Below are positions 1 to 5,936 of a stretch of DNA of 6,099 nt, in pieces (position 1 is the first letter of the stretch; each line of letters starts with the position of its first letter). Source of the DNA: Magnetococcales bacterium (GTDB taxonomy: Bacteria > Pseudomonadota > Magnetococcia > Magnetococcales > DC0425bin3); contig JADGCJ010000183.1 of the NCBI GenBank assembly GCA_015229045.1, positions 1-6,099 of the forward strand, read 5' to 3'. The position numbers were made by a program, and so were the translations under genes. The notes beneath the pieces are model-generated. The model was not told where the DNA came from. It made no database searches and was given only the letters and a program-made list of their open reading frames with translations.

Positions 1-84
1 CGGATTGAGACTTGGCTGGGACAGGGGTTTGCTTGCTGGATGCTGTCAGCGTCAAACAGGAGGATGTGTGGTTACGTTTTGGTC

Positions 85-88
85 AGGA
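85..88 (+). promoter_or_regulatory. Ribosome binding site supporting the ATG 96 start
   Basis: AGGA lies seven bases before ATG 96. The alternative TTG at 12 has no good purine-rich core at a suitable distance. The AGGAGG at 58-63 sits only two bases from the in-frame GTG 66, which is too close. Confidence 0.45.
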
Positions 89-95
89 ATATATC

Positions 96-923
96 ATGAA
101 ACAAGTTGACTTCTGTGCTGCTCGTGTTGCTCATGTGCTTTGGGAAGCTGAATTGGAGGAGATGGTTCAGCAACGTCGGAAGACGATTCACCTGGGCACA
201 TGTAAAGATTGTGATCTGGGACTATGGCTTCATGGTGATGGCATCAGGGAACTGTATCACCTGGATTCGGTGCGACAGTTGGTGAGGGTTCACGAGGCGT
301 TTCACCATACGGCCGATCGTCTCGTCGCCTTGATCTTTACGGACCAACAGAAAAATATCGAAGCAGAGATGAATCAACTGCGCAGTTTGAGCCGTGATAT
401 CGTCTATCTTGTGACCGAGGCGGAGCTAGATTATCTGGAACATAAACCATTGAGCGATTTTTCGGCACATCCGGTCAAGAGTCTCATCCATCGTTTGTTC
501 AATATACATATCCCGGAACACGGGGATGTTGAACAAAGAGGTGTCCTGGATGTGAGTTATGCAAGATTGATGCATTTGCGCTGGTCAAGGCAACTGTTGC
601 GGGCGTTCCAGCACTGGGGAAAAGATGCCGTATTGTCGACATCAGAATCCTGTGTTGTGGGTGTTTGGATCAAGGATGTCAAGAGTCAGGATGAAACGAT
701 CATCAAGATCATTAAAGAGTTGGACGAAAAGCACCATCAATTCCATGTCAAGGCAGAAGAGACGGTTCGTCTTTTGCGGAAGAAAAATTTCCGTGCATCC
801 GAGACGGTATACAACGATGTGGTAGCTCTGGGACGGGAGGTCTTGTATTTATTGACACGTATCGAGTTGGCCTTTCTGCAATCTGAAACGGTCGCCGCAT
901 CAGTAAATGTGTTTGGGCACTGA
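96..923 (+). CDS. Tandem double CZB (chemoreceptor zinc-binding) domain protein
   Basis: Numbered from ATG 96 (275 aa), the protein is two copies of a CZB-like four-helix domain. Copy 1 has His13, Cys39 in a CxxGxWL motif, His66 and His70 in HEAFH. Copy 2 has His160, Cys186 in CVVGVWI, His213 and His217 in HHQFH. The spacings (26, 27 and 4 residues) are identical in both copies. The similarity runs past the metal ligands (SRDIVYLVTEAELDYLE versus GREVLYLLTRIELAFLQ), so each unit is about 110 residues. CZB domains bind zinc through a His3-Cys site and control chemoreceptors or diguanylate cyclases. Here there is no output domain, membrane segment or signal peptide, so it is probably a cytoplasmic zinc- or oxidant-responsive adaptor (inference). 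ATG 96 has AGGA seven bases upstream. The frame is open back to TTG 12, where a 303-aa form could start with a poorer ribosome site. It is the first gene of the tight + strand cluster. Confidence 0.85.
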   Translation: MKQVDFCAARVAHVLWEAELEEMVQQRRKTIHLGTCKDCDLGLWLHGDGIRELYHLDSVRQLVRVHEAFHHTADRLVALIFTDQQKNIEAEMNQLRSLSRDIVYLVTEAELDYLEHKPLSDFSAHPVKSLIHRLFNIHIPEHGDVEQRGVLDVSYARLMHLRWSRQLLRAFQHWGKDAVLSTSESCVVGVWIKDVKSQDETIIKIIKELDEKHHQFHVKAEETVRLLRKKNFRASETVYNDVVALGREVLYLLTRIELAFLQSETVAASVNVFGH

Positions 924-1996: not shown

Positions 1997-2854
1997 ATGA
2001 AAGATATGATTGACGGAAAAGTGTCTCATGATCGTCCAATCCCATTGGCTGATGGGGTGTATTGGGTCGGTTATAATGATGCCGGGGGTGGGTTTTCGTG
2101 CAATCCGTACTTGATTGTTGATGGGGATGAAACTGTTCTCATTGATGGAGGCAGTCGTCCGGATTTCAGTACGGTAATGCGGAAAATCTTGCAGGCAGGT
2201 GTATCTCCTGGGTCAATTTCTCACCTTGTTTATCATCATTATGATCCTGATCTGTGTGGTAGTCTTCCCAATCTGGAAGAGATGATTGGTCGTGCAGATC
2301 TGAAAGTGATCTCCAAGGGTGAGAACAATCCATTTATCAGTCACTACGGTTGCCGGTCGGAACTGCATTGCATTGATAAAATGGCTCTGCAATTGGTGTT
2401 GAAATCAGGGCGAAGAGTTCGTTTTATTCCAACGCCCTACGCCCATGCGGCGGGAAGTTTTATGACCTATGACGAAAAAACGGGCATTCTCTTTTCCAGT
2501 GATCTTTTTGGCAGTCTCTCACACTGTTCTGGCTGGCAACTCTTCATGGAGGTGGATCGCCGCTGTCATGCATGCATTCAAGCTGTTCCGTCAGACTGCA
2601 AGATGGTTTGTCAGACAGTCGGTTCTTCGTGTCCCTTTTCCGGGATTGTTCAGTTCCATCGGCAGGTGATGCCCTCCAATGCCGCTTTGCGTTTCGCCCT
2701 TGCGGCAGTGCAGGCACTCAATCCCCGTATCATCGCTTCTCAACATGGTTCCATTCTGTGCAAACGGGAAGATATTGCCAAGACAATCCAGATTTTGATT
2801 AATTTGGAGGATGTGGGGATTGATGGTGTTCTTCTGGAGATGGCGCGTGCTTGA
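1997..2854 (+). CDS. ODP-like di-iron metallo-beta-lactamase-fold sensor protein
   Basis: Numbered from ATG 1997 (285 aa). The start GVYWVG, the stretch NPYLIVDG and the LIDGG strand match the MBL fold of flavodiiron proteins and their relatives, the oxygen-binding di-iron (ODP) proteins. The metal ligands visible are His81-x-Asp83-x-Asp85, His150 (PTPYAHAAGSF), Asp169 (ILFSSDLFG) and His250 (ASQHGS). Leu86 stands where flavodiiron enzymes have the second His of HxExDH, a change compatible with ODP-type sensors rather than reductases. There is no flavodoxin domain, which also argues against O2/NO reductase activity. The known ODP protein of Treponema serves chemotaxis as an iron/oxygen sensor; here the neighbour is a histidine kinase, so sensing for that kinase is inferred. 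There is an unusual Cys-rich stretch (residues 177-212). The frame opens at TTG 1952, which would add 15 residues; 1997 is chosen because family similarity begins just after it, though its ribosome site is weak. ATG 2006 is another option. Confidence 0.85.
   Translation: MKDMIDGKVSHDRPIPLADGVYWVGYNDAGGGFSCNPYLIVDGDETVLIDGGSRPDFSTVMRKILQAGVSPGSISHLVYHHYDPDLCGSLPNLEEMIGRADLKVISKGENNPFISHYGCRSELHCIDKMALQLVLKSGRRVRFIPTPYAHAAGSFMTYDEKTGILFSSDLFGSLSHCSGWQLFMEVDRRCHACIQAVPSDCKMVCQTVGSSCPFSGIVQFHRQVMPSNAALRFALAAVQALNPRIIASQHGSILCKREDIAKTIQILINLEDVGIDGVLLEMARA
2836..2840 (+). promoter_or_regulatory. Ribosome binding site for the kinase, inside the ODP gene
   Basis: GGAGA lies six bases before GTG 2847. 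This is the best-spaced site among the possible kinase starts. At ATG 2811 the GGAGG (2806-2810) touches the start codon. The site sits within the last codons of the ODP gene, so ribosomes ending there could start the kinase. Confidence 0.5.
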
Positions 2855-4190
2855 ACTGCACACCCTGTTGATGGACTGCGCCAATCGGGCGGATCCCCTG
2901 CTTGACCGGGTTCTACTATTGTTGGTTGAACAACGGGCAAAGTTGGCAGAGAGACGAATCAATGACCAGTTGCTGGTAGAACTTGTCCGCCAATTGGTCG
3001 AGTCGGAACGACAGCTCAATGAATACAAGGAAAATTTACTTCAGGCAAACGAGACTCTGGAGCGCCAGTACAGGGCACTCATCGAGGCAGAAAAATTAAA
3101 GCAGGATGTCGAACTGATCACTCGTCACGATATGAAATCCCCATTGAACGGTGTCATTGGTTTTGCAGACCTTCTCCTGAGTACCACCCTCTCTGCCGAA
3201 CAGGAAAAGCATGTCAAGACGATACGCAAGTCGGGTGTAACTGTTTTGCACATGATCAACCTTTCGCTGGGCCTGTATCGTATGGAACAAGGTATCTACC
3301 AACTGGATGTGGTGGAGATCGATTTGCTGCCGATTATTCAGAGTGTCAGGAATGATGCAACGGCATTGATTGCTGGCAATCGACTGATTCTGGAGACAAG
3401 GATTCAAGGTAAGCCTGTTGTGGCAAGCAACTCGTTCTTCATCCGTGGAGAAGAGGTGCTTTGTTACTCCATGCTGGCCAATTTGATCAAGAATGCCCTT
3501 GAGGCATCCCCCGAAGGAGGGGTCGTGACCATCGATATGGAAGGGCAAGAGGATAGAGGAGTGGTCAGGATCCGCAACCAGGGTGCTGTGCCAAAGGAGA
3601 TCCGAGGCAGCTTCTTTGAGAAATATGCCACGTCTGGCAAGTCATCTGGAACAGGACTGGGTACCTATTCCGCCAAGCTTATTGTGGAAACAATGGGCGG
3701 CACAATCCAGATGAACTCTTCCGATGACGGATGGACGGAGGTCACCATTGTTGTTCCCATTGGGGAACATTGTGTGGGTGTACCTGGGGAATCGGGTGCG
3801 ATGCGGTCTGTTGCAGAAGCCGAATTGCTGACTGATGGTGCGCATGAGACAGATGAACACCGTATTGTCACGATGCCGACAACAGAAGAAAGTCAGCAGA
3901 CAGTGCCGGATCAGTTGCCAATATTTTTGTTTGAGTTTTCACAACACATGGAAAGCCTAAGCCGAGCTGTTGAGTTACAGAACAGTGAATCCGCACTGCA
4001 GGAGGCTTTGTGGATGAGATCACGCCTATCCGAGGTGAGTGCGGTGCGTGTTGCAACACAAGCCTTGCGGTTATACGGACTGATTGAGGCAGATGATTGG
4101 GAAGATGTTCGCAAGGCATTTCAAGCGTTCAGGCAGAAACTCAATGAAGAAATTGCAAAATTGATTGTTAAAGAAACGGATGTAACATAG
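2847..4190 (+). CDS. Cytoplasmic sensor histidine kinase with C-terminal Hpt-like domain
   Basis: Numbered from GTG 2847 (447 aa). Residues 1-50 are helical with no recognised sensor domain, and 51-88 look like a coiled coil. The H box is RHDMKSPLNG with phospho-acceptor His94. The N box is LIKNALEA with Asn216. The ATP lid region reads RNQGAVP (Asn244, Gly246), FFEKYATSGK, then GTGLGTYSA (Gly268-Gly272). The G1 box thus has Asn instead of the usual Asp, a form I recall from kinases with the FeKYxTSGK-GTGLGTYSA signature. No transmembrane segment is seen. After a linker (about 309-355), residues 356-438 look like an Hpt four-helix domain, but the HxLKG motif is replaced by LWMRS, so no phospho-histidine is present. 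The start overlaps the ODP gene stop by eight bases; ATG 2811 or 2823 would give longer forms. With no sensor domain of its own, it probably takes its signal from the ODP protein (inference). The response regulator is not in the window. Confidence 0.88.
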   Translation: MLELHTLLMDCANRADPLLDRVLLLLVEQRAKLAERRINDQLLVELVRQLVESERQLNEYKENLLQANETLERQYRALIEAEKLKQDVELITRHDMKSPLNGVIGFADLLLSTTLSAEQEKHVKTIRKSGVTVLHMINLSLGLYRMEQGIYQLDVVEIDLLPIIQSVRNDATALIAGNRLILETRIQGKPVVASNSFFIRGEEVLCYSMLANLIKNALEASPEGGVVTIDMEGQEDRGVVRIRNQGAVPKEIRGSFFEKYATSGKSSGTGLGTYSAKLIVETMGGTIQMNSSDDGWTEVTIVVPIGEHCVGVPGESGAMRSVAEAELLTDGAHETDEHRIVTMPTTEESQQTVPDQLPIFLFEFSQHMESLSRAVELQNSESALQEALWMRSRLSEVSAVRVATQALRLYGLIEADDWEDVRKAFQAFRQKLNEEIAKLIVKETDVT

Positions 4191-4342
4191 TCATCAACTT
4201 TTTAGTGTACTGGTGTTTGTCTGTTTGCTTTTTTGTTGTTGGTATGTTGTGCTTTGGTTTCTGAAATATGTATACAATTCGCGAGTCTGCTCAGTGCCGG
4301 ATACCTGATTATTCTGGCTTGGTGAATGGAGTGTCTGTGTAA
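4191..4342 (+). other. T/G-rich intergenic spacer with a weak promoter candidate
   Basis: There is no gene and no clear terminator hairpin after the kinase stop. About 4206-4262 is nearly all T and G on this strand. A poor promoter-like pair, TTGTGC (4247-4252) and TATACA (4271-4276) with an 18-base gap, could serve the next gene; the palindrome TGTATACA (4269-4276) overlaps it. The matches to sigma-70 consensus are only 3/6 and 4/6. Four bases of ribosome site, GGAG (4328-4331), stand 11 bases before ATG 4343. Confidence 0.3.
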
Positions 4343-4684
4343 ATGTCACCAGTTTTGCAAACAGTTATTCTGCTTACCTTGTCCAACGTCTTTATGACGT
4401 TTGCTTGGTATGCGCATCTGAAGCATTTGGAAGATCGCTACTGGTTGATTGCTGCGGTAATCAGTTGGGGAGTGGCCCTTTTTGAGTACCTGCTGCAAGT
4501 TCCGGCTAATCGGATCGGGTTTGGATCTCTTACCTTGCCGCAACTGAAAATAATACAGGAAGTGATTGCTCTGGTTGTTTTTGTGCCCTTCTCTGTATTC
4601 TACATGGGAAATGCAGTCAAACTGGATTTTGTCTGGGCTGGTTTATGTTTGATGGGGGCGGTCTATTTCATGTTCAGAGGGTGA
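4343..4684 (+). CDS. DUF486 / DMT-type small membrane protein
   Basis: A 113-residue, very hydrophobic protein. Four membrane segments can be read at about residues 3-24 (LQTVILLTLSNVFMTFAWYA), 33-52, 68-90 (LKIIQEVIALVVFVPFSVFY) and 95-111 (FVWAGLCLMGAVYFMF). Length and the motifs TFAWYAHL, ISWGVALFEYLLQVPANRIG and KIIQEVI fit the DUF486 family of the drug/metabolite transporter superfamily closely. Such short four-helix proteins are thought to work as dimers in the inner membrane, by analogy with small multidrug exporters; no substrate is known for this family and none can be read here. The gene stands apart, 152 bases after the kinase and far from the next gene, so it is probably a separate transcription unit not tied to the signalling genes. 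Confidence 0.92.
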   Translation: MSPVLQTVILLTLSNVFMTFAWYAHLKHLEDRYWLIAAVISWGVALFEYLLQVPANRIGFGSLTLPQLKIIQEVIALVVFVPFSVFYMGNAVKLDFVWAGLCLMGAVYFMFRG

Positions 4685-4739
4685 TTTTGTTCATCGGACG
4701 CTGTTTTGACCGGGTTCCTGCTGTGTTGTGCCTCCTCTG

Positions 4740-4874
4740 TCATGACGCCGTTATAGGTTCCGGGTCAGGGAGATTTGCCATCCCATTTGTGGCATCGTTC
4801 TGCTCCGTCGCACTTCCATAAATTTCAGGAATGGGATGCTTGTGGGTGAAGCCTGTGCGGAATTCGAGTGGCAT
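4740..4874 (-). CDS. Possible small or remnant ORF, 44 residues
   Basis: From the minus-strand ATG at 4874 the peptide begins MPLEFRTGFTHKHPIPEIYG and ends MANLPDPEPITAS at TGA 4740-4742. The frame is open 14 codons further upstream, to 4916, reading KARRQEQCIRLIRG, which looks as protein-like as the rest; an internal TTG at 4886 could also start it. No clear ribosome site is seen at either start. It may be the tail of a decayed gene rather than a working one. No family is recognised, and it has no neighbour on its strand. Confidence 0.25.
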   Translation of the reverse strand: MPLEFRTGFTHKHPIPEIYGSATEQNDATNGMANLPDPEPITAS

Positions 4875-4879
4875 TCCGC
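4857..4879. repeat. 7-bp perfect inverted repeat
   Basis: The arms GCGGAAT (4857-4863) and ATTCCGC (4873-4879) enclose a nine-base loop. No T tract follows on either strand, so it does not look like an intrinsic terminator. It could be an operator or a chance match; it overlaps the start of the minus-strand ORF at 4740-4874. Confidence 0.4.
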
Positions 4880-4905
4880 GTATCAACCGGATACACTGCT
4901 CCTGA

Positions 4906-5017
4906 CGTCTGGCTTTTTACCATGATGACCAGAGGGCGTTGTCAGATTTTGACCTGCGCATCGATTTTGGCAACGACCGTGTTGGCGGGAGTGTCCTGCT
5001 CGAGCGTGTTTGACTGA
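4906..5017 (+). pseudogene. Possible coding remnant upstream of the nuclease gene
   Basis: This frame reads RLAFY then HDDQRALSDFDLRIDF and GNDRVGGSVLLERV to TGA 5015-5017. It has many codons starting with G (about half of the last 30), as expected for real coding sequence. There is no good start codon, and the frame is closed upstream by TGA 4903-4905. The nuclease frame directly after it (5010-5069) reads TDQDGYLWPARYLNLTG, which also looks protein-like, so the two may be pieces of one broken gene. The family is not recognised. Confidence 0.2.
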
Positions 5018-5060
5018 TCAAGATGGCTATCTCTGGCCTGCGCGATATCTGAATTTGACT

Positions 5061-5064
5061 GGGA
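5061..5064 (+). promoter_or_regulatory. Ribosome binding site supporting the GTG 5070 start
   Basis: GGGA sits five bases before GTG 5070. The alternative start TTG 5010 has no purine-rich site at a useful distance, and conserved nuclease sequence begins only after 5070. Confidence 0.45.
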
Positions 5065-5069
5065 ACATA

Positions 5070-5936
5070 GTGGAAGATAAAGATAAAAACAGGTCGCAGT
5101 ACGATACCACCTTCAAGGATCTGTTCAAACAGCCACCGCAGCGACTGCTGCATGTGCTGGTTGGGCAGCAGGCTGTCGCAATCTTACCAGTTGAGTTTGC
5201 GTCAACCCAGAAACGGGTGCCTGATTTGGTTTTTCTGATGGAGGATGGCTCAATAGTCCATGTGGAATTGAACAGCAAACCCGAGGAGATGGATTGGCGG
5301 ATGCTGATGTACCACACGTTCATACGGCAACAGTATCCAGATAAGATACTTCGCCAGAAGTTGCTTTATGTCGGGGATACAAGATGGAATCAGCAGGTGG
5401 GGATCGAGGAGGAGCGGCTATCGTTTCAATATGACCTTGTCGATATTCGCGACATTGACTGTCGGGAGTTGATGGCCAGTCCTCACTTGGAGGAAAACAT
5501 CCTGGCCATTCTCTGCCGGATGAGTGACCAGAATGAAACCATTCGAGAAATTTTATATCGAATCAGTGAGTTGCCGGACAAGGCCAGAGCGGATGCATTG
5601 ACAAAGCTGGTGATTCTGTCTCGGTTGCGTCGGTTGGAAACAGAAGTCAAAAGGGAGGCTGAAAAAATGGCTCTTACGTTCAATGTGATGGAAAATGATG
5701 TGTTGCGACCGTTGTTTCTGCAAGAGAGGATGGATGGCGAACTGGCAGGTGAGCGCAAAGGCCGTCATGAGGGTGAGGCAGCCGTTCTGACCCGTCTCCT
5801 TCAACATCGCTTCGGCGATCTACCACCATGGGCCAGCCAGAAAATTGCCGATGCTGAGCTAGCCACTTTGGAAAATTGGAGCCTCCGAATCCTGGACGCA
5901 CCGACGTTGGAGAGCGTGCTGGCGGACCCGTCGTAA
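5070..5936 (+). CDS. Rpn-like PD-(D/E)XK nuclease / putative transposase with DUF4351
   Basis: Numbered from GTG 5070 (288 aa). The N-terminal part opens with QYDTTFKDLF, typical of this family. The nuclease core has Asp52 (RVPDLVF), then Glu66-x-Asn68-x-Lys70 (VHVELNSK), followed by the conserved WRMLMYH. The usual form is ExQ, so Asn68 is a conservative change and the site may still bind metal. The middle (about 135-215) is helical and charged. Residues 233-286 match DUF4351 (LTRLLQHRFGDLPPWASQKI, then LENWSLRILDAPTLESVL). Relatives are called recombination-promoting nucleases or putative transposases and often occur in many copies per genome; Rpn proteins cut DNA and promote RecA-independent recombination. 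The gene stands alone, with no terminal inverted repeats seen. A longer form from TTG 5010 would be 308 aa. The core appears complete, without frameshift. Confidence 0.88.
   Translation: MEDKDKNRSQYDTTFKDLFKQPPQRLLHVLVGQQAVAILPVEFASTQKRVPDLVFLMEDGSIVHVELNSKPEEMDWRMLMYHTFIRQQYPDKILRQKLLYVGDTRWNQQVGIEEERLSFQYDLVDIRDIDCRELMASPHLEENILAILCRMSDQNETIREILYRISELPDKARADALTKLVILSRLRRLETEVKREAEKMALTFNVMENDVLRPLFLQERMDGELAGERKGRHEGEAAVLTRLLQHRFGDLPPWASQKIADAELATLENWSLRILDAPTLESVLADPS

Follow-up and report, generated by a model that had tools for sequence, protein, structure and literature searches.

The question raised by this Magnetococcales locus, analysed as a window of 6,099 nucleotides, is how a free-standing ODP comes to share a gene junction with a soluble histidine kinase, when the ODP of T. 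denticola is described with a chemoreceptor as its partner (PMC7666581, PMC6978683; further background on ODP chemotaxis sensors in PMC9665402). The first-pass annotation had proposed that the ODP is a separate sensor subunit of a two-component pathway. This proposal stands insofar as the ODP is the separate partner of a non-chemotaxis kinase in a conserved pair, and is incomplete insofar as five kinds of output occur, the kinase being a single one of them, and as the likely docking module and an insert with four cysteines had escaped it. The pair in the window is a real, conserved sensor-kinase pair inside a wider modular system. In our main reading, to which we give a probability of about two in three, the di-iron sensor is a free-standing subunit and docks on a portable helix for signal transmission, the output in this locus being a kinase; the docking, the ligand (O2 or iron) and the cofactor of a four-cysteine insert (Cys4) are the parts that we infer.

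The reading frame of the sensor matches the ODP family PF19583 with an E-value of 2.7e-55 and 187.7 bits, the curated cut-off being 27.2, and has the H-x-D-x-D...H...D...QH ligands, the ODP fold, no flavodoxin domain and an end at 285 residues. The metallo-beta-lactamase fold and the six metal-type residues H81, D83, D85, H150, D169 and H250 had been recognized at first pass and all are where they had been placed; none of them varies among the 30 aligned homologues or in any of the 80 loci described below, and D83 and D85 are each kept in 119 of the 120 homologues listed. The bridging role of D169 we take to be the same as in flavodiiron proteins. The replacement of the flavodiiron His by Leu86 was likewise confirmed (79/80 loci), and since the solved ODPs of T. 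maritima and T. denticola also lack this His, both having Val at its position, Leu86 is normal for the ODP family. As a flavodiiron protein the window ODP does not qualify, having H-Y-D-P-D-L in place of the H-x-E-x-D-H motif and no further domain. A residue on which the earlier reading had not remarked is Gln249, which adjoins H250, is invariant and may be a substitute ligand for the absent flavodiiron His; a Gln ligand in the T. maritima ODP is described in PMC7785958.

Table 1. Coordinates of the features discussed in the text; positions refer to the window except where locus L001 is named.
Feature	Position	Strand	Remark
Stand-alone CZB protein (two zinc-binding stretches)	12-923		no other Pfam domain over cut-off
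ODP gene, metallo-beta-lactamase-fold sensor of di-iron type	1997..2854	+	285 aa
H81-Y-D83-P-D85-L86-C87 metal motif, HYDPDLC type	2237..2257	+	H81, D83, D85 in 80/80 loci; L86, C87 in 79/80
H150, predicted iron ligand	2444..2446	+	80/80 loci
D169, predicted bridging ligand	2501..2503	+	80/80 loci
Cys4 insert, C190-x2-C193-x11-C205-x6-C212	2564..2632	+	
Q249-H250	2741..2746	+	80/80 loci
GGAG ribosome-binding site of the kinase, within the ODP gene	2836..2839	+	7 nt before GTG 2847
ODP/kinase overlap	2847..2854	+	8 bases
Shared N-terminal module, proposed ODP docking/transmission segment	2847..3047	+	first ~67 kinase residues (core ~25-57)
Soluble HisKA-type histidine kinase	2847..4190	+	447 aa, GTG start; HATPase_c 4.7e-17, HisKA 3e-9
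H94, predicted phospho-acceptor (HDMKSPL)	3126..3128	+	invariant in 31/31 aligned kinases
C-terminal four-helix region, Hpt-like, phospho-His absent	3912..4178	+	predicted helices 356-376, 380-396, 400-414, 418-444
DUF4351 protein, downstream of the pair	5010-5936		
Receiver-hemerythrin fusion protein (likewise of di-iron type)	L001 3094-4011		end at about window position 8

At the gene junction, the ribosome-binding site that had been assigned to the kinase was found inside the ODP gene, and the GTG start gives the eight-base overlap claimed (Table 1). The arrangement of GGAG, 7 nt and GTG recurs in the relatives L001 to L005; L004 keeps both elements 21 bases further up; since the ODP frame of L004 continues further, the overlap there amounts to 29 bases. 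The in-frame codons ATG 2811 and ATG 2823 may also serve as the kinase start, which would lengthen the overlap to 44 or 32 bases; in contrast to the window, L005 has no start codon upstream of its GTG at -8. Of the relatives, Candidatus Magnetaquicoccus inordinatus UR-1 (L001) is 98.5% identical to the window over a 6,098-column alignment, and Magnetococcales WMHbinv6 (L003) has 96.7% identity over 6,102 columns. The differences between the window and L001 are unevenly spread, with about 78 in the first 2.8 kb or so (1-2800) against about one in the 3 kb that follow (2800-5900), and the two kinases are identical; near the ODP/kinase junction there is thus either a breakpoint of recombination or a joint in an assembly of mixed strains.

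The partner gene does not encode a chemoreceptor of the kind associated with the T. denticola ODP; its product has a phospho-acceptor His helix and a HATPase_c domain, and no sensor domain was found in Pfam, as the first-pass annotation had held. Asp is usual in the G1 box of histidine kinases. The corresponding box of the window kinase is not of this canonical form and reads NQGAVP, with Asn in 13 of the 13 compared proteins (the window's included), a feature which weakens the case for a catalytically competent kinase and leaves the HisKA/HATPase_c match intact. A monomer structure prediction (pTM 0.51) gives an unbroken helix from residue 17 to 111. The C-terminus matched Hpt by hhalign with an E-value of 8e-4 and a probability of only 24%; given this weak match, and as none of the 17 aligned C-termini has a His at the phosphorylation site, a full Hpt domain was rejected.

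The conservation of the pair was addressed by a contig scan of genomes in which the best 80 of 130 relatives were picked by their ODP alone. A gene carrying the N-terminal module of the window kinase adjoins the Cys4-bearing ODP (Cys4-ODP) in all 80 loci, and five kinds of output follow this module: HD-GYP (24), GGDEF (20), HisKA kinase (18), SpoIIE (15) and class III cyclase (2), the remaining partner being cut by a contig end. In 73 loci the partner is the directly next gene (HD-GYP 23, GGDEF 20, HisKA 17, SpoIIE 13), and in 72 of these its frame opens no more than 16 nt past the ODP stop. Three more partners (two SpoIIE and one HD-GYP) were recovered from reading frames that open further upstream, and contig ends truncate two, of which L020 starts as a HisKA protein and L034 shows the module only. 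Both cyclase genes (L058 and L078) stand upstream of their ODP, the one in L058 by 386 bases; the module-bearing class III cyclases of L126-L131 share this position, opposite to that of the other outputs.

The module is helical and rich in leucine, and in an alignment of 50 sequences only three columns reach 90% identity, with Ala31, Leu42 and Leu46 (window kinase numbering) near-invariant. Pfam, NCBIfam and PDB gave no credible match for the module. Among the 50 members, Pfam and NCBIfam returned scattered weak matches, none of them in the module of the window itself; BID was the commonest (5/50, best E 0.013) and the strongest reached 0.00089 in one member. PDB returned a single match at E 0.97. 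Profiles trained on one output class recognized the N-termini of the others at E<1e-3, with E-values computed on small local sequence sets: the kinase-trained profile found 15/15 SpoIIE, 18/20 GGDEF and 14/24 HD-GYP proteins, the GGDEF-trained profile 17/17 kinases, 15/15 SpoIIE and 16/24 HD-GYP, the SpoIIE-trained profile 17/17 kinases, 18/20 GGDEF and 24/24 HD-GYP, and the HD-GYP-trained profile 13/15 SpoIIE, 14/20 GGDEF and 10/17 kinases. The two GGDEF proteins that were missed are probably those of L024 and L031, since in these a PAS domain separates the module from the GGDEF domain and so puts the module outside the 90-residue cut; a second local module search found it in both. In a control of 717 other reading frames at E<0.1, the kinase-trained profile matched four, all of them partners (L020, L034, L058 and L078), and the only extra matches were marginal (L074 at 0.062 with the GGDEF-trained profile; L019 at 0.04 and L061 at 0.09 with the HD-GYP-trained profile).

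Searches of whole genomes showed that the module is near-exclusive to the surroundings of Cys4-ODPs. In 10 genomes that had supplied loci of the 80, all 12 module matches at E<1e-12 adjoin a Cys4-ODP, and the next-best three matches (E 0.56-0.69) are at places without one. A search of 200 genomes of the family of G004 gave one match, the already known pair. Among 297 Desulfobacterota genomes there were eight module matches in seven genomes, all eight beside an ODP; seven of these pairs lie outside the 80 loci, six with a cyclase and one with a SpoIIE partner. The pair of a further Desulfobacterota genome (G505, locus L160) falls below the genome-wide module threshold, its module being visible in a local search. 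Of the 48 Magnetococcales genomes, 11 have Cys4-ODPs, 13 in total and every one accompanied by a module gene; 14 of the 15 module matches in the 48 are beside an ODP, including one ODP that is cut by a contig end and shows the four Cys (G535, L170); the exception is a 1394-aa protein of G543 (E 5.5e-4) with no adjoining ODP. Ten of these 14 pairs are within the 80 loci and four are new (G522, G534, G535 and G518); as the module profile had been trained on the 80 loci, only new pairs count as independent. By genome, the Magnetococcales partners are a kinase in seven of the 48 (one of the seven kinase-paired ODPs being cut by a contig end), GGDEF in six and GAF-HD-GYP in one, kinase and GGDEF pairs occurring together in two genomes. 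The gene pair of the window recurs in other genomes, with HisKA partners in 18 of the 80 loci and in the seven Magnetococcales genomes. The outputs have been swapped on the ODP tree: a quick tree with the five output labels requires 8 changes (minimum 4; shuffled mean 44.6), and its starred branches force at least 3 changes for the kinase label. By record name, the pair-bearing records belong to about 14 phyla, many of them being metagenome bins.

The Cys4 insert accompanies the module. Of the 80 loci, 79, 78, 78 and 80 have Cys at positions 190, 193, 205 and 212, as do 120, 120, 116 and 120 of the 120 proteins listed (window included), and in the five loci where a single Cys is replaced the substitutes are Tyr, Glu, Ser, Ala and, once, His (L040). 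ODPs with HYDPDL (or HFDPDL, HADPDL) in whole genomes have the insert and an adjoining module gene; those with HQDPD[IVFL] have neither. The ODPs of T. maritima and T. denticola are much shorter at this position, and in ODPs fused to output domains the insert columns are gaps without Cys in 100 of 100 among the matches listed. The strict Cys pattern passed over L090/L119, where one site is His, L128/L153, whose spacing is shorter, and the fragments L120 and half of L126, and the narrower module profile of the motif survey passed over the partner of L132/L148, which other module searches recover. The ODP of G334 is split across two reading frames (L126, 2283-2940), through either breakage of the gene or an error of sequencing. 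In G536 (L181) the ODP match has one TGA within the matched stretch, and the same place, when read as L162, is an ODP reading frame of ordinary length. L160 (1330-2328, minus strand) encodes an ODP relative which has lost several di-iron ligands and has kept the four Cys and a module-bearing HisKA partner.

We propose that the di-iron site of the soluble ODP would bind O2 or respond to Fe(II), by analogy with known ODPs, and that the ODP would dock on the N-terminal module of the kinase. In the structure prediction this module comprises a short helix and the start of a helix of about 95 residues that continues directly into the phospho-acceptor helix, so that the state of the sensor could alter the packing of the long helix and set autophosphorylation at H94. 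The Cys4 insert may contribute to the docking face or to the sensor, or have a share in each; here it was encountered only where the partner of the ODP bears the module. Through the overlap, translation would keep the two subunits balanced and near each other. The phosphate would then pass to a response regulator whose gene lies outside the window, there being none within it. Among eight reading frames scanned upstream of the pair in L001 are a STAS-domain protein, a 704-aa protein of no known kind and a receiver-hemerythrin protein, all kept in L003 and L002; as the sole receiver among them the last is the first candidate for the kinase target. L004 has the other upstream neighbours and no receiver-hemerythrin match. 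The CZB protein near the pair is kept in L002, L003 and L004.

Other explanations have to be weighed against this one. That the ODP is an enzyme (an O2 or NO reductase, or a hydrolase), merely sharing an operon with a regulator which it does not contact, would suit a fold held in common with flavodiiron proteins and metallo-beta-lactamases, and gene overlap is by itself common in bacteria; we consider this quite improbable, given that the flavodoxin domain for feeding electrons is absent and that the same module heads the partner in 80/80 loci across five output types. Hardly more credit, and if anything a shade less, is due to the view that the module is a generic coiled coil which links soluble output domains and is no dock for the ODP: its helical, leucine-rich character and low identity would agree with that, yet its genome-wide matches are almost confined to the neighbourhood of Cys4-ODPs, although many other kinases and GGDEF proteins would be expected in such genomes. 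Co-occurrence of Cys4 and module is not in itself proof of contact, since both may share one ancestry.

More serious, if still unlikely, is the possibility that the Cys4 holds an iron-sulphur cluster which is the main sensor of redox state, NO or iron, and that the di-iron site tunes it or supplies electrons. The near-invariance of the four Cys, the replacement by His in L040, as in a metal site, and the survival of the four Cys with a module-bearing kinase partner in L160 all speak for a cluster of this kind. On the other hand, the di-iron ligands, invariant in the 80 loci, must matter as well, Ala, Ser, Tyr and Glu (the four remaining replacements) are atypical ligands for such sites, and a structural zinc site would fit equally well. 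The docking of a di-iron sensor subunit on a transmission helix remains our preferred reading. A wider reading would make the Cys4-ODPs a pan-bacterial dual-metal sensor (di-iron and a Cys4 cluster, probably Fe-S) and an interchangeable subunit, which through one portable docking helix drives histidine kinases, c-di-GMP synthesis, c-di-GMP breakdown, PP2C phosphatases and nucleotide cyclases; we put this forward tentatively, at somewhat less than even odds. If the docking reading is true, a module of about 67 residues would predict an iron or O2 input for many kinases, diguanylate cyclases, HD-GYP enzymes, phosphatases and cyclases that are otherwise orphans and that come, by the names of their records, from about 14 phyla, largely from anaerobes and microaerophiles as judged by these names, and would offer a ready part for building oxygen-controlled enzymes. 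To our knowledge, few soluble sensor subunits act on several unrelated enzyme types through one docking segment.

An ODP outside chemotaxis is not new in kind, as PMC7319448 already describes ODPs fused to signalling domains and ODPs encoded in operons, some with chemoreceptor genes and some with other genes of signal transduction. A literature search of titles and the beginnings of abstracts, with most subscription papers outside it, returned no report of the Cys4 group or of the module, and as far as searched these two and their association are new. The single-chain ODP-kinase fusions that the first-pass annotation had envisaged do exist; the 100 listed are of a different ODP type, without Cys4 or module. 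These ODP-GGDEF and ODP-kinase fusions (P0262-P0361) resemble the window pair in joining an ODP domain to the same kinds of output and differ from it in being one chain, with the module in 0/100 and Cys in the insert region in 0/100 among the matches listed; no natural fusion of a Cys4-ODP with the module occurs among the 100 fusions and 139 unfused ODPs listed (120 of 172 matches in one ODP search and less than half of 1568 in another). Flavodiiron proteins share the di-iron beta-lactamase fold with the window ODP and have Glu and His (H-x-E-x-D-H) where it has Asp83 and Leu86, and unlike them it has no flavodoxin domain. The receiver-kinase proteins P0128, P0134, P0137 and P0139, some of them from Magnetococcales, are 45-50% identical to the window kinase over 83-95% of its length and have a similar C-terminal region, but carry a receiver domain in place of its module. 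Finally, the chemotaxis sensors of T. denticola and T. maritima (PDB 6qnm, 6r9n, 6qrq, 6qwo) have HQDPDV and no insert of comparable size, whereas the window ODP has HYDPDLC and Cys4, and its partner is a HisKA kinase headed by the shared module.
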